The notes beneath the pieces were generated by a model. That model worked only from the letters and a program-made list of their open reading frames with translations. It ran no database searches and was not told the DNA's origin. Source: Aliihoeflea sp. 2WW (GTDB taxonomy: Bacteria > Pseudomonadota > Alphaproteobacteria > Rhizobiales > Rhizobiaceae). Taken from it: 57,831 nucleotides of DNA. The stretch lies in NCBI RefSeq assembly GCF_000497755.1, contig NZ_AYOD01000042.1, positions 1 to 57,831 of the forward strand, written 5' to 3'. Shown in pieces: positions 4,100 to 56,467 of the stretch (within the stretch, counting starts at the first letter, position 1; each line of letters opens with the position of its first letter). The position numbers and the translations under genes were made by a program.

Positions 4100-5059
4100 C
4101 TAATTCGGCTGCTGGACCCCGGTGACGCCGGGTTTGAGCGGGCGGCGCTGGCGGCGGAACTCGAGCCCGATATGGACGAGGAGCGCGGCGAAGACGACCG
4201 CGCCGCCGAGGATGGTTCGCGCCGAGGGCACCTCGGCATGGACGAGCCACACCCAGACCGGGCCGAGCAGCGTTTCGAACGTGCCGAGAAGCGCGGCGAA
4301 GGCGGCCGGGATGAGCCGCGCGCCGGTGGCGAAGAAGGCGAGGCCGAGGCCGAGATTGAGCGCGCCGAAGGCGAAGAGGAACGCCATGTCGGGGGCAGTC
4401 ACCGCGAAGGTCGAGGTTTGCGTCGCGGCGAACGTACCGGCGATGAGCGTGCCGAGGCACGTCGCCGGCGTCATGCGGACATGGGCATAACGGCGCGTGA
4501 TGACGGTGGCGCAGGCGAAAACCAGCGCGATCAGCACCGCAAGGCCGTCGCCGATGGGCGAGACGTTTCCGGTGAGCGAATCCGAGACCATGATGGCGAC
4601 GCCGATGATGACGGCGGCAATGGCGCACCATGTGGCCAGCGAGACGCGCTCGCGGAAAAGGACGAACGCGATGAGCGCGGCGATGAGCGGCACGCCGGCC
4701 TGCATCAGGAGAACGTTGGCGACCGTCGTGTAGGAGAGCGCGACGACGAAGGAGGTCGACGCCGTGGCGAAGCAGTGGCCGACCGCGACGCCGGGCAAAC
4801 CCATCTGGCGAAAGAGCGCCTTCGTGCCGGCAAAGCCGTCGCGCCAGACCATGTAGCCGATGAGAAAGGCGGCCGCCCAGAGCGAGCGCCAGAAGACGAC
4901 CGTCCAGGAATCCGGCGCCTCGATGAAGCGGGCGATGGCGCCGCCGAAACTCCAGAACAGGGCGGAGAGGAAGACGAGCAGCAGCCCGACGCGCTCCTCG
5001 CGCGGGGAGACCGCCGGAACGGCGGCAGGGACGGCGGTGACGGGCGCGACCTGCGACAT
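4100..5059 (-). CDS. EamA/DMT-family transporter
   Basis: Inner-membrane protein of about 319 residues with the ten hydrophobic segments of two tandem EamA domains (drug/metabolite transporter superfamily). Recognisable features are the paired GALFW-like first helix near residue 35 and the repeated sequence pattern in the second half. Substrate is unknown; members export amino acids, metabolites or drugs. The ATG at 5059 is preferred, with a weak GGAA upstream; an in-frame ATG at 5101 would add 14 residues. It is separated by 78 nt from the puuA-like gene downstream and may be co-transcribed with it. Confidence 0.8.
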   Translation of the reverse strand: MSQVAPVTAVPAAVPAVSPREERVGLLLVFLSALFWSFGGAIARFIEAPDSWTVVFWRSLWAAAFLIGYMVWRDGFAGTKALFRQMGLPGVAVGHCFATASTSFVVALSYTTVANVLLMQAGVPLIAALIAFVLFRERVSLATWCAIAAVIIGVAIMVSDSLTGNVSPIGDGLAVLIALVFACATVITRRYAHVRMTPATCLGTLIAGTFAATQTSTFAVTAPDMAFLFAFGALNLGLGLAFFATGARLIPAAFAALLGTFETLLGPVWVWLVHAEVPSARTILGGAVVFAALLVHIGLEFRRQRRPLKPGVTGVQQPN

Positions 5060-17212: not shown

Positions 17213-17250
17213 GTATACGAAACGGAACGACAGCAGCGAGCCTTGAACGC

Positions 17251-18720
17251 ATGACCAGCACGACCATTCCCGTCGAGCCCTTCGATTTCGTCGTCTTCGG
17301 CGGCACCGGCGACCTTGCCGAGCGCAAGCTTCTGCCCGCGCTCTACCAGCGGCAGAAGGCGGGGCAGTTTTCCGAGCCGACACGCATTTTCGGCGCCTCG
17401 CGCTCCGAGCTATCCGACGACGAATTTCGCGAATTCGCGCGAAAAGCGATCGCCGAGCACGTGCCGGCGGCGGACATCGACGACGGGCAGGTCGAGCGCT
17501 TCCTGAAGCGTATCGCCTATGTGCATGTCGATGCCAAGTCGGGCGATGGGTTCGACCGGCTGAAGGAGGCGATGGGCGAAACGGACCGCATTCGCGCCTT
17601 CTATCTGGCGGTCGCGCCAGCGCTATTCGGCGACATCGCGGCAAACCTCGAAAAGGCGGGCTTAGTGACGCCGGCAAGCCGGATCATCGTGGAAAAGCCG
17701 ATCGGGCGCGACCTCGCGTCCGCCAGGGCGCTGAACGACGCGATCGGCCGCGTCTTCGACGAACAGCAGATCTTCCGCATCGACCACTATCTCGGCAAGG
17801 AGACGGTGCAGAACCTGATGGCGCTGCGCTTTGCCAATGCGCTCTACGAGCCGCTGTGGAATTCGGCCCATATCGACCACGTGCAGATCACGGTTGCCGA
17901 GGCCGTCGGGCTCGAGGGCCGCGTCTCCTATTACGACAAGGCCGGCGCGCTGCGCGACATGGTGCAGAACCACATGCTGCAGCTTCTGTGCCTCGTCGCC
18001 ATGGAAGCACCCGCCGCGCTCGACGCGGATGCGGTGCGCGACGAGAAGCTGAAGGTGCTGCGTGCGCTCAAACGTGTCAATGGCAGCGATTCGCCGAAGC
18101 TGACCGTGCGCGGGCAATACAAGGCCGGCGCTTCGGCGGGCGGCGCGGTGAAATCCTATGCCGACGAACTCGGCCATGACAGCGAGACGGAGACCTTCGT
18201 CGCGATCAAGGCGGAGATCGAGAACTGGCGCTGGGCGGGCGTGCCGTTTTATCTGCGCACCGGCAAGCGGCTGGCCGAGCGCGTCTCGGAAATCGTCATC
18301 GAATTCAAGCCGATCCCGCATTCGATCTTCGAGGAAAGCGCCGGCAATGTCGTCGCCAACCAGCTCGTGATCCGGCTGCAGCCCGACGAGGGCGTCAAGC
18401 AGTTCATCATGATCAAGGACCCCGGCCCCGGCGGGATGCGGCTGCGCAACGTGGCGCTCGACATGAGCTTCGCGCAGGCCTTCGACGTGCGCAATCCCGA
18501 CGCCTATGAACGGCTGATCATGGACGTGGTGCGCGGCAACCAGACCCTGTTCATGCGCCGCGACGAGGTGGAAGCGGCGTGGCGCTGGATCGACCCGATC
18601 GTTGAGGCCTGGGATGAAAACCAGCAGGGCGTGCAGGGCTATACGTCGGGGACGTGGGGGCCTTCGGGCTCGATCGCGCTGATCGAGCGCGACGGGCGGA
18701 CGTGGCACGAGAGCATTTGA
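17251..18720 (+). CDS. zwf: Glucose-6-phosphate dehydrogenase
   Basis: Oxidises glucose-6-phosphate to 6-phosphogluconolactone with NADP+. The 489-residue protein has the cofactor motif GGTGDLAERK at about residues 14-23 and the active-site peptide RIDHYLGKE near 174-182, both diagnostic. It is first in a zwf-pgl-edd operon: its TGA overlaps the pgl ATG by one base (TGATG). This gives the upper Entner-Doudoroff pathway, the normal sugar route in rhizobia. Confidence 0.97.
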   Translation: MTSTTIPVEPFDFVVFGGTGDLAERKLLPALYQRQKAGQFSEPTRIFGASRSELSDDEFREFARKAIAEHVPAADIDDGQVERFLKRIAYVHVDAKSGDGFDRLKEAMGETDRIRAFYLAVAPALFGDIAANLEKAGLVTPASRIIVEKPIGRDLASARALNDAIGRVFDEQQIFRIDHYLGKETVQNLMALRFANALYEPLWNSAHIDHVQITVAEAVGLEGRVSYYDKAGALRDMVQNHMLQLLCLVAMEAPAALDADAVRDEKLKVLRALKRVNGSDSPKLTVRGQYKAGASAGGAVKSYADELGHDSETETFVAIKAEIENWRWAGVPFYLRTGKRLAERVSEIVIEFKPIPHSIFEESAGNVVANQLVIRLQPDEGVKQFIMIKDPGPGGMRLRNVALDMSFAQAFDVRNPDAYERLIMDVVRGNQTLFMRRDEVEAAWRWIDPIVEAWDENQQGVQGYTSGTWGPSGSIALIERDGRTWHESI

Positions 18721-49000: not shown

Positions 49001-50422
49001 TCACTTGCCGGCCGTTTCCACTACCCGGGAGCAGAGGCGCGAGGCGTCGAGCAAGCCGGCGCCGTAGACCGGATCGCGCCCCGGATCGCCGAGGTCGGAA
49101 GCGTCCGCGATCAGGCGGCGCTCCAGTTCGGCCGGCGACAGATCGCCATCTGCGGCGAGCATCTTCGACAGGGCTGCGGTGACGAAGGGCGCCGCGAACG
49201 AGGTGCCCGTCTTGGTGCGGGCGCCCGAGATGGAAGCGGCCGTCCAGATGTCGACGCCGGGCGCGGCGACATCGACATGGTCGCCCTGGACCGCGCGCCG
49301 GTAGACGCGGCCGCGGCTATCGACGGCGGTGACGGCGATCACGCCGGGATATGCCGCAGGAAAGCGCGGTTCGGCGCGGGCGCCGTCATTTCCGACCGCG
49401 GCCACGATCGCGATATCGGCGCCGACCACGGCCCTCACCATTCGCTCCAGAACCCGGTTGTCCTCGCCCGCGAGGCTCAGATTGACGATGCGGACCTGCC
49501 GTTCGACCAGAAGGTCGAGCGCGCGCACGACATCATAGGCAGCGGCGCGCTCGGCCCGGCCTTCGCCGACAAAGGCATCGACGGCGACGAGGCGTGCGTC
49601 GGGCACCAGCCCACGCGCCCGCTCCGCAACGCGCCCGACGAGCAGCGCGGCGACCGCCGTGCCGTGCTGGCGACCGGACGGCGGCTCGGCCTCGCTGGAA
49701 ATCCGCACGACCTCCAGATCGGCGCCCTTGAAGATCGCATGCGCCGGATTGATGCCGGTATCGACCATGCCGATCGCGACCGGCCCGGAACAGTTCCGCG
49801 CGTCGAGCGGCCAGTTAACCATTTCCAGCGGCGGGCAGGCCGGGCCCTCGCAGGCCGGCGATGAGCCAGCGGCGCTGGCGCGGTAGAAATGATTGAAGTC
49901 CGCGCTGGCCTCGTCATTGATCGCCCGGACGGCGTTGCGGGCGTCCTCGAGGCTGAGGCCGTCGGGAATGCGCAGCTTCAGGAGGGTCTGGTCCAGCGTT
50001 TCGAGGCGTTCCTGAGACAGGATCGCGTAGCCTGCCGCTTCGAGCGTGGCGCCGTCATCGGCCGTCAAGCCGATCGCGACGATCTCGCGTTCGGCTTGGG
50101 CCGGCAACGGTGCCGGCTGCGCGCGAACGCGGCGCGGCGCACGCTGACGCGCACCGCCGAAGGGGCGCAGAAACTGGCGCAGGAACCGCGGAGGGCGTGT
50201 TCCGCCGCCCCGCAGACCGGACGCCCCGCCCCCGCCTTCCCCGGCGAACGCTCCGCCGTCGTCGCCGTCATCGCCGTCGTCGGCAAAAGCGGTCGCGGCG
50301 ACGAGATGCAGGCCGGCGTCCGGAACGACGGGGCTGGCAGCGAGAAGCAATGCGATCATGCAGGCCGCGAACGGCTTCGACACGCGTTTCACCTTGTCCA
50401 CCTTCATTCGATTTGCCGGCAT
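49001..50422 (-). CDS. Exported S8 family serine protease (subtilase)
   Basis: Subtilisin-like protease of 473 residues. The hydrophobic signal segment is at about 18-47, then an acidic/Gly-rich region (48-75), an Arg/Pro-rich segment, and a propeptide-like domain (about 110-180). The catalytic domain has Asp221 (GMVDTGIN), His253 (RQHGTAVA), oxyanion Asn345 (VGNDG) and Ser408 (TGTSFAAPFV). It is divergent from the ECF sigma gene, with overlapping GGAAT/CGTT promoters. It may process proteins of the same regulon outside the cytoplasm. The exact start is uncertain; ATG 50407 and GTG 50392 are alternatives. Confidence 0.87.
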   Translation of the reverse strand: MPANRMKVDKVKRVSKPFAACMIALLLAASPVVPDAGLHLVAATAFADDGDDGDDGGAFAGEGGGGASGLRGGGTRPPRFLRQFLRPFGGARQRAPRRVRAQPAPLPAQAEREIVAIGLTADDGATLEAAGYAILSQERLETLDQTLLKLRIPDGLSLEDARNAVRAINDEASADFNHFYRASAAGSSPACEGPACPPLEMVNWPLDARNCSGPVAIGMVDTGINPAHAIFKGADLEVVRISSEAEPPSGRQHGTAVAALLVGRVAERARGLVPDARLVAVDAFVGEGRAERAAAYDVVRALDLLVERQVRIVNLSLAGEDNRVLERMVRAVVGADIAIVAAVGNDGARAEPRFPAAYPGVIAVTAVDSRGRVYRRAVQGDHVDVAAPGVDIWTAASISGARTKTGTSFAAPFVTAALSKMLAADGDLSPAELERRLIADASDLGDPGRDPVYGAGLLDASRLCSRVVETAGK

Positions 50423-50431
50423 CGGCGCGCC

Positions 50432-50457
50432 GGAATAAGAGTCGCTCTGGAAACGTT
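50432..50457 (+). promoter_or_regulatory. GGAAT-type ECF promoter for sigma/anti-sigma operon
   Basis: GGAAT (50432-50436), 17 nt, CGTT (50454-50457). It shares its -10 bases with the opposing promoter at 50452-50476. Confidence 0.7.
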
Positions 50458-50476
50458 GGCGAAGAGCACATATTCC
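50452..50476 (-). promoter_or_regulatory. GGAAT-type ECF promoter for the S8 protease
   Basis: Minus strand GGAAT (50476-50472), 16 nt, CGTT (50455-50452). The palindrome AACGTT serves as the -10 of both this and the sigma promoter. Confidence 0.65.
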
Positions 50477-50511
50477 TGTGCGTCGAAATTTGTTTTGCAG
50501 ACAGGCGAGCG

Positions 50512-51045
50512 ATGACGAGCCCTCCCAGCGATATCGGCGACCAGCTCATCGCATTCCTGCCCAACATGCGCCGGTTCGCATTGTCGCTGTCGCGTGCGCC
50601 GGACGTCGCGGACGACCTCGTGCAGCAGGCCTGCGAACGGGCGCTTGCCAGTTCGGCGAGTTTCGAGCCGGGCACCCGCTTCGACGCGTGGATGTTCCGC
50701 ATCATCCGCAATCTGTGGATCGACCGGACGCGCCGGCAGAAGACCGCCGGCCCCAGCGAAGACGTCTATGAGCGGCACGATCTGATGGGCGAGGACGGGC
50801 AGCAGGTGGCCGATGCCCGCCAAGAGCTGTCATCGGTCAGGGACGCGCTCGAGGCGATGCCGGAGGATCAGCGCGCGATCATCATGCTCGTCTGCGTCGA
50901 CGATCTTTCGTATCGCGATGCCGCAGAGGTGCTGAACGTGCCGATCGGCACCGTGATGAGCCGACTGGCGCGGGCGCGCAAAAGACTGGCCGAACTGACG
51001 GGAATAAACCCGGTGCCGGGTCGTTCTACCGGTGCGAGGGATTGA
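50512..51045 (+). CDS. ECF-family RNA polymerase sigma factor (second ECF system)
   Basis: Sigma factor of 177 residues. Region 2 includes DDLVQQACERALASSASF and AWMFRIIRNLWIDRTRR; region 4 includes MPEDQRAIIMLVCVDDLSYRDAAEVL and the helix VPIGTVMSRLARARKR. It resembles EcfG in its core but lacks a PhyR/NepR context; its partner is the anti-sigma gene 4 nt downstream. The promoters around it read GGAAT-N16/17-CGTT, which is probably its recognition sequence. Confidence 0.92.
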   Translation: MTSPPSDIGDQLIAFLPNMRRFALSLSRAPDVADDLVQQACERALASSASFEPGTRFDAWMFRIIRNLWIDRTRRQKTAGPSEDVYERHDLMGEDGQQVADARQELSSVRDALEAMPEDQRAIIMLVCVDDLSYRDAAEVLNVPIGTVMSRLARARKRLAELTGINPVPGRSTGARD

Positions 51046-51049
51046 AACC

Positions 51050-51826
51050 ATGATCGAACCGATGATTTTTGACGACGAGACATTGATGGCTTTCGCCGAT
51101 GGCGAACTGGACGAGGCGACGACTAAGGCCGTCGAACGCGCGATGGAAACCGACGATGCGCTGGTGATGCGCGTCGCCGAATTCATCGAGACGCGCGCGA
51201 CGGCACGCGAGGCCTTCACGCCCGCCGAGCCTGTTCCGGCCGCGCTCGAAGCGGCGGTGCGCGGCATGGTCGAACGTCATCGCGCGGCCGAACAGCCGGC
51301 GTCGAACGTCGTTTCGCTCGGCGCAGCACGCACGAGGCGCTTCGGCTTCGCGCAGCAATCCTGGCAATTGCCGCTCGCCGCCTCGCTGGCGACGGCGATC
51401 GCGGCCGGATTCATCGGCTACCAGCTCGGGCAGAGCCCCGGCGCGGCGCCCGTCGAACCGGGCCTCGACGGCTTTTCGAGCGCAGAAATCGCATCCGTTC
51501 TCGACAGCGCCGCTTCGGGCGACGAGGTCACCATCGCAGACGGATCGGGTCGCGTGCGGCTGATCTCCTCCTTCAACGAACAGAGCGGCGCGCTTTGCCG
51601 CGAATACGAGGTCGACCGCAGCGCCGGCGCGTCGGTCGTCGCGGTTTCGTGCCGGGACGACAGCGACTGGTCGATGCGGTTTGCGGTGGCCGCTCCGGCC
51701 GGCGGCGACGGCTATGCGCCCGCCTCCTCGCTCGATGCACTCGAGGCCTATCTCGGCGCGATCGAAGCCGGACCGGCGCTGACGGCGGAAGAAGAACGCG
51801 CTGCCCTCGACGCGGCGGCGCGCTAA
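51050..51826 (+). CDS. Transmembrane anti-sigma factor
   Basis: Protein of 258 residues: an N-terminal cytosolic anti-sigma domain (about 5-75, ETLMAFADGELDEATTKAVE), one membrane helix at about 106-125 (LPLAASLATAIAAGFIGYQLG), and a periplasmic domain of about 130 residues with two cysteines (LCREY and VSCRDD) that could form a disulfide. It lacks the HxxxCxxC zinc motif. It should release the sigma factor when the envelope signal is sensed. It ends 4 nt into the convergent kinase gene. Confidence 0.85.
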   Translation: MIEPMIFDDETLMAFADGELDEATTKAVERAMETDDALVMRVAEFIETRATAREAFTPAEPVPAALEAAVRGMVERHRAAEQPASNVVSLGAARTRRFGFAQQSWQLPLAASLATAIAAGFIGYQLGQSPGAAPVEPGLDGFSSAEIASVLDSAASGDEVTIADGSGRVRLISSFNEQSGALCREYEVDRSAGASVVAVSCRDDSDWSMRFAVAAPAGGDGYAPASSLDALEAYLGAIEAGPALTAEEERAALDAAAR

Positions 51827-53016
51827 ACCGTCCGCGCGAGACCCTTTTCCATCAGCCGCGAAATGAGGCCGGCGAGATCGGCCTCGATGCGCGTGCGCTC
51901 GATCTCGGGATAGGCTTCGGCGAGTTCATCGGCGAGGTCGAGCGGGGCGACTGGAGCGGCGAGCGCTTCCCAGATTGCCGCGCCGAGCGCATCCAGCGCA
52001 AAGATGCCGCCGCCCGAACGGTCGGCGAGAAACGCGCCGCCATCGCCCATCGGCTGGAGAACGACGTCGCCTGTGCGGACGATGGTGTCCGAGGGGAGGC
52101 TCGCCCTTGCCGGCACATAGTCGGGCGATGCGACGCGCGGGGTGCCGGGGCGCAGTGCGGCGTGAACCGCGGCGAGGTCTGCCGAAGCCAGCCGCGTGAG
52201 CAATTTGCGGGCGTCGGCAAGGCTCTCGTAGCGCAGGAGGAATGCCGGGCACCTGGCCGCAAGCCGGTCGATGCGCCCGAGCACGATGTCGGACGGCGCG
52301 GCATTGCCGAAATTCTGGACGAGCAGGATCTTCATCGCCTGTCCGGGCGCGACGGCAAGCAGTTCGGGCCGGGCGTCGCGCGCGCGTTCCAGAAAAACGA
52401 AGGCGCTCGCGTCGCGACGTTCGCCGAAGCGGGCAAGGCGCGCCGGCGGCAGCGCGAGATAGCGGTAGTGTCCGTCGTCGGGCCCCTTGTGACGCCAGGC
52501 GTCGAAGGCGAAGCGGCGACCGAGCGCGCGCGGCAGGGGCACGCGAAGGCGCGGTGCAACGCCCGAGGCGACGAGCGCCCCGACGCCGTCCCGGCAGTCG
52601 ACCGGCACGATGTCGTCGGCGATGATCCGCGCGCCGCAGAAGGCGAGCGCCGCCGTCAGCGTGCTCTTGCCGGCGCGGTGCGTGGACGGAAAGACGAAGT
52701 CGCGGCCGGCGAGCGAAACCGCGCTGGCATGCAGGCAGAGCATCGACGGATCTGGCTCGACCATGCGGTTGAGCAGGATCACGACGAGGCTGCAGGCGGC
52801 GCTGAGGGCGCTCGGTTCGGTGAAAGTCCGGCGCTCCGGTTCGTCGATGACGTAACCCCCGCCGCTTCTGCGCACTTCGAGGAAGGGGTAGCACGAATCC
52901 GACACGGCGGTCCACGACCAGCCGGAGGTGACCCGCTTCAAGATCGCCAGAACGGGCTCGGAATCGACGAAGCGCACCGGGCGGTCGACCAGCGCGCAGG
53001 AGTGATTTGCAGGCAT
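51823..53016 (-). CDS. HprK-like kinase fused to a PqqD domain
   Basis: Protein of 397 residues. The N-terminal part (about 1-95) is followed by an HPr-kinase-like P-loop STHRAGKST at 111-119, preceded by LHASAV, and an acidic ADDIVPVD at 133-140 as in HprK. The last 90 residues form a PqqD-type winged fold (TIVRTGDVVLQPMGDGGAFL, then ALDALGAAIWEAL). PqqD domains bind leader peptides of modified peptides, so the protein may dock on a partner and phosphorylate it. The likely partner is the exported Gly-rich protein encoded 72 nt upstream. Start ATG 53016 has GAGGG before it. Confidence 0.82.
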   Translation of the reverse strand: MPANHSCALVDRPVRFVDSEPVLAILKRVTSGWSWTAVSDSCYPFLEVRRSGGGYVIDEPERRTFTEPSALSAACSLVVILLNRMVEPDPSMLCLHASAVSLAGRDFVFPSTHRAGKSTLTAALAFCGARIIADDIVPVDCRDGVGALVASGVAPRLRVPLPRALGRRFAFDAWRHKGPDDGHYRYLALPPARLARFGERRDASAFVFLERARDARPELLAVAPGQAMKILLVQNFGNAAPSDIVLGRIDRLAARCPAFLLRYESLADARKLLTRLASADLAAVHAALRPGTPRVASPDYVPARASLPSDTIVRTGDVVLQPMGDGGAFLADRSGGGIFALDALGAAIWEALAAPVAPLDLADELAEAYPEIERTRIEADLAGLISRLMEKGLARTV

Positions 53017-53038
53017 CGTGATGTCCCTCACGCTTGCA

Positions 53039-53065
53039 GACCGGCCGGAAATCGTCCGGCCGGTC
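53039..53065 (-). terminator. Attenuator-like hairpin between the Gly-rich gene and the kinase
   Basis: Perfect 11-bp inverted repeat GACCGGCCGGA / TCCGGCCGGTC with a 5-nt loop. No U-run. It would let more Gly-rich protein than kinase be made from the same message. Confidence 0.65.
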
Positions 53066-53087
53066 CGCATGTCCAGTCGGGTCAGGT

Positions 53088-53527
53088 TCAGTTGAAGCCG
53101 AAGGCACGGCCGATGCTGCGGCCCATGTCCTGCAGGCCGCGGCCGAAATTGTCGACCGCCTGGCCGGCGCCGCGACCGAACGAGCCGCCACGGCCAGCGC
53201 GTCCGCCCGATCCGCCGAAGCCACCCCGGCCGCCGGACCCGCGACCACCGGAACCGCGACCGGGGTGGCACCGCCACCGCCACCGGAACCGGCGCCACCG
53301 CCCGAACCGCCACCGCCGCCGCCACCACCACCGCCGGAGCCTGCGCCACCGCCCGAACCGGCGCCACCGCCGGAACCGGCGCCGGACGCATGCGCCTGGC
53401 TGAGCTGCAGAAGGGCCGGCGCGCTGTAGGCGGCGGCAGCGAGCAGGCCGATGCGGCCGAGCGCGCGGCGACGGCCGAGCGATACCGTTTCGGCTTGCGA
53501 ATTCAGGTTCTTGGAAACGTCTTTCAT
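53088..53527 (-). CDS. Tat-type exported Gly-rich protein with an apparent -1 frameshift
   Basis: The N-terminus has a twin-arginine-like signal (LGRRRALGRIG, then a hydrophobic run to QAHA near residue 49). A GSGGGAGSGGG repeat region follows. At about 53262-53265 (a CCCC run in the coding strand) the sensible reading shifts by -1. Beyond it the frame gives GRGSGGRGSGG, then a non-repetitive C-terminus ending RSIGRAFGFN and a stop at 53088. The unshifted frame runs on into the next gene in non-protein-like sequence. The joined product would be about 145 residues. It may be a sequencing slip, true mutation or programmed frameshift. It has a GGAAT-type promoter upstream. Confidence 0.65.
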
Positions 53528-53591
53528 CTTGACCTCCTGTTTCGTGAACGAGGCCGGCGGAGCCTTGCGGACTGGCCGGTCACGAGCGGCA

Positions 53592-53616
53592 AACGGGACG
53601 TCGGCCGGTTTATTCC
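53592..53616 (-). promoter_or_regulatory. GGAAT-type ECF promoter for the Gly-rich protein gene
   Basis: Minus strand GGAAT (53616-53612), 16 nt, CGTT (53595-53592), 65-89 nt before the start codon. Confidence 0.65.
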
Positions 53617-53641
53617 AGGCCGGCTGATTTCACCGGCTGAT

Positions 53642-53666
53642 GGAATAGAAGGCCCGTGTGAACGTT
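53642..53666 (+). promoter_or_regulatory. GGAAT-type ECF promoter for the SLC13 permease
   Basis: GGAAT (53642-53646), 16 nt, CGTT (53663-53666), about 30 nt before the ATG at 53697. Again the -10 lies in AACGTT. Confidence 0.65.
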
Positions 53667-53696
53667 CGTCGACCAACAGAAAAACGGACGACAGCA

Positions 53697-55115
53697 ATGA
53701 CCGCAGCCATTTTGCCCCTGACCCGACCGATCCTTGCCGCCGGCCTGCGGCAATGGCTCGTGGCTGCGGCGTGCGTCGGCCTTGCCTGGGTCGCGATCGG
53801 ATTTTTCCTCGCCGACCTCGCCTTCGAAGGTCGCGCGACGCTTGCCGTGTTCGTCGCCATGATGGCCGGTTGGCTGATCCTGAAGCTGCCCGAAACGCCG
53901 GTCGCCATCATCGCCTTCCTGGCGCTTGCGGCGACCGGTGCGGCCGACCAGGACGACCTCTTCGACACGTTCGACAACGAGATCATCTGGCTCCTGATCG
54001 CGGCCTTCATCCTTGCCGCCGTCATCAGGCGGACCGGTCTTGCCGAGCGCCACGCCATGCGCGCGATCGCCCTGTTCCGCTCGGTGCCCGCCATCTTCAT
54101 GGCGGCGACGCTGATCATCTTCGTCACCGCCTTCTTCATTCCCTCGACCTCGGCACGCGCCGCGATCCTGCTGCCGGTCTTCGCGGCGCTCTCGGCGGCG
54201 ATCGGGCGGCCCGGCGTCACCAAGGCGTTGGCGCTGCTCTTTCCGAGCGTCATCCTGCTTTCGGCCGGCGCGTCGCTGACGGGAGCGGGCGCGCATCTGA
54301 TCGCGCTCGGCTTCATCGACGAGATCGACGGTCTCGTGATTTCCTATCTCGACTGGGCGCTGCTCGGTGCGCCGTTCTCGCTGGCGATGAGCCTTGCGGC
54401 GAATTTTATGATCCAGCGCCTGTTCCTGACCGATGCCGACAAGGCGCCGCTCGGGCGCGCGATTGCGACATCGGGCGGACCCAAAGCCGGCGACCGCCGC
54501 CTGACGGCGATCATCGTCGGAACGGTTGCGCTGTGGGCGACAGGCGGTTGGCACGGCATCGATCTCGCGCTGATCGCGCTCGCCGCTGCCCTGCTCGCCG
54601 CCTCGAAGGCGGTCTCGGGGATCGCGTTCAAGGACGCGTTGAAGGACGTCGACTGGAACCTGCTCTTCTTCCTCGCCGCGACCCTCGTCGTCGGCGAAGC
54701 GCTGCTCGAGACCGGCGCCGCGGCCTTTCTCGTCGACCGGCTTGTCGGCTCGCTCGACACGGCGCTGAGCCCGGCGCTGACGATCGCGATCGCGGTGATC
54801 GTCGCCGCGCTCGCTCATCTCCTCATCATTTCACGCACCGCGCGGGCCGCCGTGCTGATCCCCGCGCTTGCCCTGCCGCTCTCGCGCTTCGGCACCGATC
54901 CGACGACCCTGATCTTCGTCGTGACGATCGCGAGCGGCTTTTGCCAGACGCTGATGGTGTCGGCCAAGCCGGTCATGCTGTTCGGCCAGGCGGAGGGGCA
55001 GCCTTTCGACCAGGGCGACCTTCTGAAACTGGCGGCATGGCTGCTGCCGGTCTTCGTGGCGGCGCTCCTGTTCTTCGCGCTGGTCGTCTGGCCTTTGCAG
55101 GGACTGGGCGGCTGA
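53697..55115 (+). CDS. SLC13/DASS family anion permease
   Basis: Inner-membrane transporter of 472 residues with 11-13 hydrophobic helices. Family signs are the FFIPSTSARAAILLPVFAAL motif near residue 145 (the SNT-like anion site) and the repeated SRTARAAVLIPALALPL block near 380. Members carry citrate, dicarboxylates or sulfate. A glycerate kinase follows 81 nt later, so glycerate or a related hydroxy acid is a possible cargo. It is divergent from the Gly-rich gene and has a GGAAT-type promoter. Confidence 0.85.
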   Translation: MTAAILPLTRPILAAGLRQWLVAAACVGLAWVAIGFFLADLAFEGRATLAVFVAMMAGWLILKLPETPVAIIAFLALAATGAADQDDLFDTFDNEIIWLLIAAFILAAVIRRTGLAERHAMRAIALFRSVPAIFMAATLIIFVTAFFIPSTSARAAILLPVFAALSAAIGRPGVTKALALLFPSVILLSAGASLTGAGAHLIALGFIDEIDGLVISYLDWALLGAPFSLAMSLAANFMIQRLFLTDADKAPLGRAIATSGGPKAGDRRLTAIIVGTVALWATGGWHGIDLALIALAAALLAASKAVSGIAFKDALKDVDWNLLFFLAATLVVGEALLETGAAAFLVDRLVGSLDTALSPALTIAIAVIVAALAHLLIISRTARAAVLIPALALPLSRFGTDPTTLIFVVTIASGFCQTLMVSAKPVMLFGQAEGQPFDQGDLLKLAAWLLPVFVAALLFFALVVWPLQGLGG

Positions 55116-55133
55116 TCTTTTTCGCCGGCGAAG

Positions 55134-55158
55134 GGAATAGACGCAGGCGCCGGACGTC
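55134..55158 (+). promoter_or_regulatory. GGAAT-like promoter candidate for glycerate kinase
   Basis: GGAAT (55134-55138), 16 nt, CGTC (55155-55158); one mismatch from the regulon pattern. Confidence 0.4.
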
Positions 55159-55195
55159 ATCCCCTCGAACAGACATTCCCAAGGCGAGAATTCCC

Positions 55196-56467
55196 ATGTC
55201 GATGACCATTCTGATCGCTCCTTCCGGCTTCAAGGAAAGCCTTTCGGCCGAGACCGTGGCCGCCCGCATCGAGGCCGGCGTCAAGCGCGCCCTGCCCTCC
55301 GCCCGCATTCTCAAGGCGCCGATGGCCGATGGCGGCGAAGGTTTCACGCGGGCACTGGTCGAGGCGACCGGCGGCACGGTTCATCCCGTCCGGGTGACCG
55401 GACCGGTCGGCGAGCCGGTCGACGCGTTCTTCGGGATGCTGGGCGGGCAGGACCAGCCGACAGCGGTCGTCGAGATGGCCGCAGCCGCCGGTCTGCGCCA
55501 CGTGCCGCGCGACCGGCGCGACCCGACGCGCACCACGAGCTACGGCGTCGGCGAACTCGTCCGCGCCGCGCTCGATCATGGCGCGACGCGCATCCTGCTC
55601 GGCTGTGGCGACAGCGGCGTCAATGATGGCGGGGCGGGCATGGCCGAGGCGCTCGGCGTACGCTTTCTCGACGGCGACGGCAACCGCGTGCTGCCGGGCG
55701 GCGGCGGACTTGCCGAACTCGCGCATATCGACGTTGGCGGCCGCGATCCGCGTCTCGCCCGCGTGCGCATCGACGCCGCCGTCAACTGGCACAACCTCCT
55801 GACGGGGCCGAAGGGCGTCGCCCGCGTGTTCGGCCCGCAAAAGGGCGCGACGCCCGCGCAGGTCGACCTTCTGTCAGGCGCGATGGAAACCTATGCCGCG
55901 CTGATCGAGACCACCACCGGCGTGCGCGTCGCGGATGCGCCGGGCGCAGGTGCATCTGGCGGCATCGGCGCAGCGGTCATGGGTCTTCTTGGCGGCGTGC
56001 TCCACCCGCGCTACGACCTCGTGATGCAGTATCTCGACCTCGACGCGCTGATCGACGAAGCCGATCTCGTCATCACCGCCGAAGGCAGCCTCGACGGACA
56101 GACGCCCTACGGCAAGGTGCCGGTGGAAGTCGCGCGCCGGGCGAAGCTGCGCGGCCTGCCGGTCATCGCGCTCGCCGGCACGATCGGCAAGGGCGCGGCC
56201 TCGAATTTCGCCCACGGCATCGACGCCTTCGCCTCGATCGTCAAGCGCCCCTGCTCGCTCGACGAGGCGATCGAGAAGGCCGACAAGTTCCTGGTGCGCG
56301 CGGCCGAGGACGCGACGCGCATGATCCTCGTCGGCTTGATGCTGGCGGAGGGGCCACAGGTGACCGATCGGCGATTTCGACGCCCCCGTCTTGCACGCCA
56401 GCAAACGGGCGCGACGGTCGTTCCGTTTTCCCGCGCGCTGCCGCGCGAAATTCCGGTAGCCGGTTAA
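55196..56467 (+). CDS. Glycerate kinase (GarK/GlxK type)
   Basis: Phosphorylates D-glycerate, probably to 2-phosphoglycerate, feeding glycolysis. The 423-residue protein belongs to the glycerate kinase type 1 family, with MADGGEGFTRALV near residue 45, GCGDSGVNDGGAGMAEALG near 140 and TAEGSLDGQTPYGKVP near 295. It is longer than usual because of a C-terminal Arg-rich tail of about 40 residues. ATG 55196 has AAGGCGAG before it. It probably works with the SLC13 permease. Confidence 0.9.
   Translation: MSMTILIAPSGFKESLSAETVAARIEAGVKRALPSARILKAPMADGGEGFTRALVEATGGTVHPVRVTGPVGEPVDAFFGMLGGQDQPTAVVEMAAAAGLRHVPRDRRDPTRTTSYGVGELVRAALDHGATRILLGCGDSGVNDGGAGMAEALGVRFLDGDGNRVLPGGGGLAELAHIDVGGRDPRLARVRIDAAVNWHNLLTGPKGVARVFGPQKGATPAQVDLLSGAMETYAALIETTTGVRVADAPGAGASGGIGAAVMGLLGGVLHPRYDLVMQYLDLDALIDEADLVITAEGSLDGQTPYGKVPVEVARRAKLRGLPVIALAGTIGKGAASNFAHGIDAFASIVKRPCSLDEAIEKADKFLVRAAEDATRMILVGLMLAEGPQVTDRRFRRPRLARQQTGATVVPFSRALPREIPVAG

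Follow-up and report, generated by a model that had tools for sequence, protein, structure and literature searches.

What do the genes at positions 49001-56467 of contig NZ_AYOD01000042.1 of Aliihoeflea sp. 2WW (assembly GCF_000497755.1) make together, and which of them belong to one system? The whole contig, 57,831 nucleotides long, is the window of this analysis and is part of a 4.14-Mb genome (G000; G, C and L numbers are our handles for genomes, contigs and loci). The locus carries, in order, genes for an S8 peptidase (minus strand), an extracytoplasmic function (ECF) sigma factor and an anti-sigma factor (plus), an HprK-like kinase joined to a PqqD domain and a glycine-rich twin-arginine protein (minus), a permease and a glycerate kinase (plus). 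The first-pass annotation of this DNA had called the same genes, and profile scans bore the calls out (S8, ECF sigma, PqqD, glycerate kinase, SLC13/DASS). We found a regulon of a known kind, that of ECF group 26 (ECF26), of which the precursor-kinase module is the new part. It appears fairly probable that within this regulon the PqqD domain docks the twin-arginine translocation (Tat) leader of the precursor, the kinase phosphorylates serines of its core, and the Tat system exports the product. The closest named relatives, judged by the kinase, were a Rhizobiaceae metagenome-assembled genome (L001), Mesorhizobium sp. YIM 152430 (L002) and Aliihoeflea sp. 40Bstr573 (L003).

The kinase gene (51823-53016, minus strand) encodes a single protein with an HprK-like kinase domain (residues about 1-290) and a C-terminal PqqD domain (about 310-397). 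The C-terminal domain scored above the cut-off of PF05402 (3.9e-11) and matched four solved chains of RiPP recognition elements (RREs; RiPP, ribosomally synthesized and post-translationally modified peptide), namely 5v1u, 9x90, 6jx3 and 9x8z (3e-9 to 7e-5). On these matches the domain is assigned as a PqqD-like RRE. The four chains come from TbiB1, TfuB1, PbaB1 and LppB, with 9x90 named PbaB1 and 9x8z named LppB (PMC13381572). In LppB, D70 is hydrogen-bonded to the leader Tyr (PMC13381572), and by our count this residue aligns with D380 of the kinase protein, which was invariant in all 14 aligned rows. H96, GKST at 116-119, D135, R156 and R158 were invariant in the same rows, and D134 was nearly so. 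The AlphaFold2 (AF2) model of the kinase had a pLDDT of 90.7, and Foldseek ranked PEPCK first (E 2.6e-7), followed by HprK/P (3.0e-4 and 3.6e-4), all with low TM-scores (0.20-0.48 by query length). The PEPCK and HprK/P folds are kin. Membership in the HPr-rel-A system (TIGR04352) was rejected, as the match (3.4e-13) reached 49.4 bits against a cut-off of 200.

The partner of the kinase is a short precursor (53095-53527, minus strand) composed of a Tat signal, or leader, containing YSAPAL and a core rich in Gly, Ser and Arg. No profile of Pfam or NCBIfam matched it in our scans. Five precursors were scanned in all, and four had no NCBIfam or Pfam match, the other (L104) giving weak Tat-type and HxsA4 NCBIfam matches. 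The N-terminus follows the pattern RRxxLxxLGLxxxxxYxAPxLLxLxxAxA. Precursors were collected by a pattern requiring R, a hydrophobic residue, G, Y/W/F and P, but neither the exact spacing nor the two Ala. Of the 39 so obtained, which come from 36 loci, 38 had RR at -15 from the Tyr, all 39 had Leu at -11 and 38 had Gly at -7; 36 had Ala at +11, and 36 had Ala at +13. The conserved Tyr lies in a sequence of the type [Y/W]xxPx[L/V/I/F/A], which is bound by the RREs of lasso and linear polyphosphorylated peptide (LPP) systems (PMC13381572). Of the 24 TIGR01409 Tat-signal matches of G000 (E<=1; 15 above the cut-off), 1 contained this sequence. An RR...YxxPx frame was present within 1.3 kb upstream in 39 of 44 kinase loci compared with 12 of 232 shifted stretches, the sole background comparison made; three of the 47 kinase loci (L036, L045 and L049) had been left out as cut. 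Since two of the matches (L114 and L121) are chance matches by eye and the precursor of L096 lies on the other side of the kinase, a convincing precursor adjoins 38 of the 44. The earlier pairing of a PqqD-fused kinase with an exported Gly-rich protein thus gained support, with a docking sequence YxxPx[L/V] in the signal peptide, and recognition of the leader by the RRE is well supported by these comparisons.

Behind the AxA of the leader the cores vary widely: GGSGGG or RGS repeats in much of the family, RRSF in L027, (RRS)n in L046, SRSK in L099, RPSRSS in L109, DAS in L097 and SRPSY in L119 and L120, both from outside the class. Across these unrelated repeat types Ser was the only residue that made up at least 4.5% of 39 of 39 cores, a threshold chosen with the lowest core, 1 Ser of 22, known to clear it, and Cys was nearly absent. 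Because the HprK-like LppK phosphorylates Ser 3 of the LPP core (PMC13381572), phosphorylation of serine is the natural prediction for these cores.

A second, related locus is present in the same genome (L027, G000:C52, 2641-5495). It contains an S8 gene whose product carries a Tat leader with YSAPVL, a 70-aa precursor ending in RRSFSRRSFSRRSFSR, a kinase-RRE gene and two sites of the promoter motif described below; by eye, it adjoins phenylacetate-degradation-like genes.

The chemistry assigned to the kinase could be different. The regulon may be real and the HprK-PqqD protein may yet make another modification, or may chaperone or gate export, its RRE holding the Tat signal and its kinase fold working as a nucleotide switch. 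The chemistry of the HprK/PEPCK fold group is variable, Foldseek ranks PEPCK ahead of HprK/P, and a proofreading role is plausible for a protein whose leader is a signal peptide. Against this, GKST, the Asp pair and the invariant His and Arg are all kept, Ser is found in every one of the 39 cores, and a related HprK-like enzyme with an RRE was identified as a peptide kinase by mass spectrometry (PMC13381572). We regard this alternative as unlikely, and take phosphorylation of the core as the reading to be followed.

The distribution of the kinase was surveyed in samples of genomes, each count including G000. At family level 18 of 297 genomes had a match, at order level 10 of 397, at class level 39 of 385 (a figure that takes in split as well as unrelated HprK families) and at phylum level 4 of 299. 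The class-wide figure overstates the system because L113 looks like another HprK-related family. At L113 (7839-9024), separate HprK-like kinase and PqqD-like frames lie in what by eye is a polysaccharide-type gene row with no recognisable precursor; separate kinase and PqqD frames also occur in other lineages. Pairs of precursor and kinase were found in the Alphaproteobacteria and in one further class of the same phylum.

The regulatory part of the locus is of a kind already described. Lang et al. 2018 placed RpoE6 of S. meliloti in group ECF26 and reported that rpoE6 is divergent from a serine protease gene, an arrangement that is widely conserved (PMC6180224). They gave -35 GGAATA and -10 GT as the consensus of RpoE6 promoters, suggested an RpoE6-dependent promoter inside rpoE6 ahead of ecfR6, and found that overexpression of RpoE6 activates genes behind such sites (PMC6180224). 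The sigma gene of the window (50512-51045, plus strand) gave a profile match and encodes an RpoE6-like factor with 60-63% identity to the Sinorhizobium plasmid copies among the matches listed. GGAATA/GT promoters stand ahead of its own genes and a serine protease gene is divergent from it: exact motifs are located ahead of the S8 gene (50452-50476, minus strand), ahead of the sigma gene (50432-50457, plus strand) and within the end of the sigma gene, 49 nt 5' of the anti-sigma start (51001-51025, plus strand). A plasmid stretch of S. meliloti (L157) shows the RpoE6 gene order; its sigma factor is 62% identical to that of the window, and its sites ahead of the protease, anti-sigma and DUF6065 genes were 0 or 1 base off the printed sites of SMa0142, ecfR6 and SMa0148. 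By these likenesses the sigma factor, anti-sigma factor, protease and promoters are taken to be of the known RpoE6 (ECF26) kind, and this set is not new because the same one has been described for S. meliloti. The first-pass annotation knew of no description of the set; that statement does not hold for the sigma factor, the anti-sigma factor, the divergent protease, the GGAATA promoters or the promoter within the sigma gene (PMC6180224). In the account of Lang et al., microarrays yielded no functional role for the RpoE6-type ECF26 regulon, and release of the sigma factor from its anti-sigma factor is called hypothetical for the ECF26 sigma factors of S. meliloti (PMC6180224).

The anti-sigma gene (51050-51826, plus strand) was recognised by a match to NF052375 below the cut-off (4e-9). 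By eye, its product appears to follow the order of RpoE6-type anti-sigma factors, in which an N-terminal domain is followed by a transmembrane helix (here a hydrophobic stretch) and a periplasmic C-terminal domain. The AF2 model was weak (pLDDT 69.2) and gave no structure match at E<=0.001. Two cysteines, C183 and C201 (51596-51652 in the window), were invariant in alignments of 11 and 10 rows, and could possibly form a disulfide or act as a redox sensor.

The promoter motif links this regulatory part to the precursor and kinase. The four exact GGAAT-N16/17-CGTT sites and the one near match listed in the first-pass annotation were confirmed, among them the exact site ahead of the precursor-kinase operon (53592-53616, minus strand); the list had lacked the site within the sigma gene. 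The window contained 6 exact matches compared with 0.93 expected, and none of 100 shuffles reached 6. Five of the six lie within the locus, and the sixth, at 17246-17270 (minus strand), lies elsewhere and begins GGAATG. In the genome, 51 exact matches were counted vs 12 for the reversed pattern, and 13 of the matches had A at position 6, including the 5 of the locus and 2 in the second related locus on contig C52. Seven other genome sites were inspected (L028-L034), and an evident gene start close behind the site was seen only in L030. There (4422-4474, G000:C35) GGAATA...CGTT lies 52 nt ahead of a gene start; the product looks by eye like an exported cell-wall hydrolase, and the gene is possibly a further member of the regulon.

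Conservation of the motif ahead of the same genes in relatives was the check proposed with the first-pass annotation. In 29 loci (515 kb), with exact motifs counted up to 300 nt upstream of a gene, the motif preceded 19 of 22 precursor genes, 21 of 21 S8 genes (the start being estimated for 11) and 16 of 18 anti-sigma genes. These loci are not independent, being akin, yet they span down to about 31% kinase identity. Position 6 was A in 61 of 62 gene-linked sites, which refines the motif. All of the surveyed sequence held 14 further sites, the permease sites included; as these are few, 0.004 sites are expected per stretch. A Shinella plasmid stretch (L159) showed the full set, namely sigma factor, a hypothetical protein in the place of the anti-sigma factor, S8 protease, a leader-bearing hypothetical protein of 86 aa and a 'PqqD family protein'.

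The motif was also compared with the presence of the sigma factor. Four genomes (G067, G249, G024 and G125) have the motif ahead of the precursor and no sigma gene near the kinase; all four encode the sigma factor elsewhere (56-62% identity), with anti-sigma and S8 genes that bear the same motifs. At 1e-30, no such sigma factor was found in G101 and G208, whose precursors in 3 loci lack the motif, nor in G148, a genome of the same genus with no kinase match, nor in G086, whose kinase sits on a 3.5-kb contig. The motif thus goes with the presence of the sigma factor, also where the genes concerned are widely separated. The earlier claim of a local regulon stands as to a sigma-linked regulon with its motif and its precursor-kinase pair; the regulon is not merely local, and the S8 gene goes with the sigma factor.

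The permease and glycerate kinase genes show the same. An exact motif (53642-53666, plus strand) precedes the gene of the SLC13/DASS-type anion permease (53697-55115, plus strand; PF00939 2e-34, TIGR00785 below the cut-off), and a near match, GGAATA...CGTC (GGAAT-N16-CGTC; 55134-55158, plus strand), which is kept in L001 and L002, precedes the glycerate kinase gene (55196-56467, plus strand; PF02595 2.1e-137). The pair has the motif in all 4 genomes in which it was found, linked in the window, G060 and G265 and unlinked in G070. In that genome the pair sits on contig C3, about 30 kb into it and behind a gene that by eye resembles a TRAP transporter, and the sigma, S8 and kinase genes are on C4. 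Of 6 genomes searched at 1e-60, 3 gave no permease (G211, G148 and G032). That the two genes are mere neighbours was a candidate explanation dropped on account of the G070 copy; because this unlinked copy carries the motif, the operon is assigned to the regulon, with no evident place in the modification module. Of the earlier claim that all these genes form one set, the shared sigma motif is upheld; the operon is not evidently part of the modification and can sit elsewhere in the genome.

Such independent members could mean that the locus is a plain ECF26 stress regulon, in which the precursor is a structural Gly-rich envelope protein and not a substrate of the kinase. Nothing evident connects the permease and glycerate kinase with the peptide, and S8 and sigma genes occur with no annotated kinase nearby in 16.5-kb stretches of S. 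meliloti and Aminobacter plasmids. However, precursor and kinase stand together in 38 of the 44 kinase loci, even outside the family, where the motif was not seen ahead of the precursor, and the leader contains a sequence of the type that RREs bind. We therefore consider a set of independent members quite improbable, and the core of the modification module is taken to be the precursor and its kinase.

The S8 gene (49001-50422, minus strand) encodes a subtilase (PF00082 1.6e-32) with the D/H/S motifs, predicted to be exported. It has a signal-like N-terminus, an Asp/Gly/Arg-rich linker and, by eye, a propeptide-like region ahead of the catalytic domain. From its occurrence in the two plasmid stretches, the protease appears to travel with the sigma factor and not to belong to the core of the module. 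In 5 of 21 S8 genes (L027, L050-L052 and L159) the S8 protein itself bears the leader and a Ser-bearing linker, and 14 of the other 16 have an Asp-rich run behind a Sec-like signal. This pattern hints that acidic charge in the linker may matter and that the protease may be a substrate. In the Aminobacter plasmid (L158, 3921-6368) the motif stands 135 nt ahead of a row of DUF4956, polyphosphate polymerase domain and phytase-like genes, which adjoins the S8-ECF-anti-sigma set. S8 linkers and many precursor C-termini also carry short basic-hydrophobic stretches by eye, such as FLRQFLRPF, FFRGMRR and LLRPLRRIF (for example in the window, L047, L040 and L037). A bacteriocin-type RiPP cluster, with a Gly/Arg-rich antimicrobial that the S8 protease would activate much as NisP does with nisin, might be suggested by cationic peptides with such ends (by eye) and by the maturation of lanthipeptides by S8 proteases, but it is very improbable given the variable, low-complexity cores, the ECF26 control and the fact that no gene listed or scanned was recognised as conferring immunity or as a dedicated exporter (general scans, with no dedicated search).

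Phosphorylation of a Tat-exported precursor under ECF26 control would then proceed as follows. An envelope signal would release the sigma factor from the putative membrane anti-sigma factor, and all units would be transcribed: the sigma and anti-sigma genes, the exported S8 protease, the permease-glycerate kinase operon and one or two precursor-kinase operons. The RRE would grip YxxPx[L/V] in the Tat signal and bring the Ser-bearing core to the kinase, which would phosphorylate its serines in the cytoplasm, a location proposed because ATP is there. The Tat system would export the modified precursor, signal peptidase would cut at the conserved AxA, and the S8 protease may trim the exported protein. 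The product would probably serve under stress as a scaffold in the envelope or outside the cell.

Several observations weigh against this reading, beside the low TM-scores and the choice of the Ser threshold. The kinase is far under the NCBIfam cut-offs, and the demanded residues of the leader are present by construction, since the collecting pattern required them. Two of the 39 kinase loci with an upstream RR...YxxPx frame (L114 and L121) have it, by eye, by chance, and six kinase loci have no convincing precursor (L100, L101, L106, L113, L114 and L121). The precursor of the window is frameshifted inside the repeats relative to the intact L001, L002 and L003, its conserved C-terminal end lying in another frame, through either a fault of the assembly or a true loss. 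The cores of L043 and L107 hold a single Ser, that of L043 being Thr-rich instead; the cores are low-complexity, so Ser richness may partly be composition. The S8 gene is not beside several kinases and is absent in L003. An exact motif was found upstream of the sigma gene itself in no more than 6 of 18 loci. L048 and L049 could be a single operon cut in two by a contig break, and the motif-less loci may therefore be 2, not 3. Outside the family, no motif site was seen upstream of precursors. The predicted phosphate, export and binding are read from sequence.

One locus outside the family, L102 (5047-9236), has two leader-bearing precursors, a kinase-RRE gene and a distant ECF/anti-sigma pair (45% and 29% identity). 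As its precursors have no exact motif upstream, sigma control there may use another motif.

A broader proposal, which we put forward tentatively and rate a little below an even chance, is a RiPP-like class in which the Tat signal is the leader and the kinase-RRE protein phosphorylates GGS, RGS, RRS, SRPSY and DAS cores before export, giving a secreted proteome of phospho-Ser repeat proteins. In a second subtype the S8 protease, with its leader and Ser-bearing linker, would also be a substrate, the first subtype having mostly acidic Asp runs; in Rhizobiaceae the class would be under ECF26. Among the matches listed in open-licence literature, where an account in a closed journal could be missed, neither a Tat signal serving as a RiPP leader nor the present kinase fusion together with a precursor was described. 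If the proposal is true, Tat export signals double as enzyme-docking leaders and tie a cytoplasmic modification to Tat export, which would explain the use of Tat by a disordered repeat protein. The RpoE6-type ECF26 regulon would gain a concrete product to seek, and RRE-guided peptide phosphorylation would reach beyond Bacillota, to Alphaproteobacteria and to a further class of their phylum.

Phosphorylation of Ser-bearing, basic surface repeat proteins is familiar from CotH and CotG of the spore coat; the CotH kinase has another fold, and the pair is not known to have an RRE or a Tat leader. Nearer are the phosphorylated lasso peptides of the paeninodin type, which share with the present system an HprK-like kinase with an RRE and the same type of leader sequence (PMC13381572). 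Lasso peptides have a short core, whereas the cores here are repeats, and a lasso cluster was rejected, as neither a macrolactam (Asn-synthetase-like) cyclase nor a B2 peptidase was found among the 9 proteins scanned around the locus. The LPP systems of Bacillota share the HprK-like kinase, present in the window with scores under the curated cut-offs, the RRE, and a linear precursor with variable cores behind a conserved N-terminus that holds YxxPx[V/L]; their leader is cut by a signal-peptidase-like enzyme (PMC13381572), and cleavage would be alike here. The RRE of LPP is discrete, whereas that of the window is fused to the kinase, and of the LPP leader YxxPxVLxHQxIxFETxxS the present leaders keep YxxPx[L/V], then mostly L, and not HQxIxFETxxS. 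The SpI-like LppS, the NTP transferase and the MsbA-like transporter of LPP were not among the same 9 proteins, and in a term search the main text of that paper contained none of 'twin-arginine', 'Proteobacteria' and 'Pseudomonadota' (PMC13381572). The window system differs further from LPP in its Tat-signal leader, its ECF26 control and its mostly repetitive cores. With RpoE6-EcfR6-SMa0142 of S. meliloti (PMC6180224) it shares the sigma factor, an anti-sigma factor that is probably a membrane protein, a serine protease gene divergent from the sigma gene, GGAATA promoters and a promoter for the anti-sigma gene inside the sigma gene. The S. meliloti stretch has no kinase or precursor annotated, and to this known frame the regulon of the window adds the precursor-kinase and permease-glycerate kinase operons.

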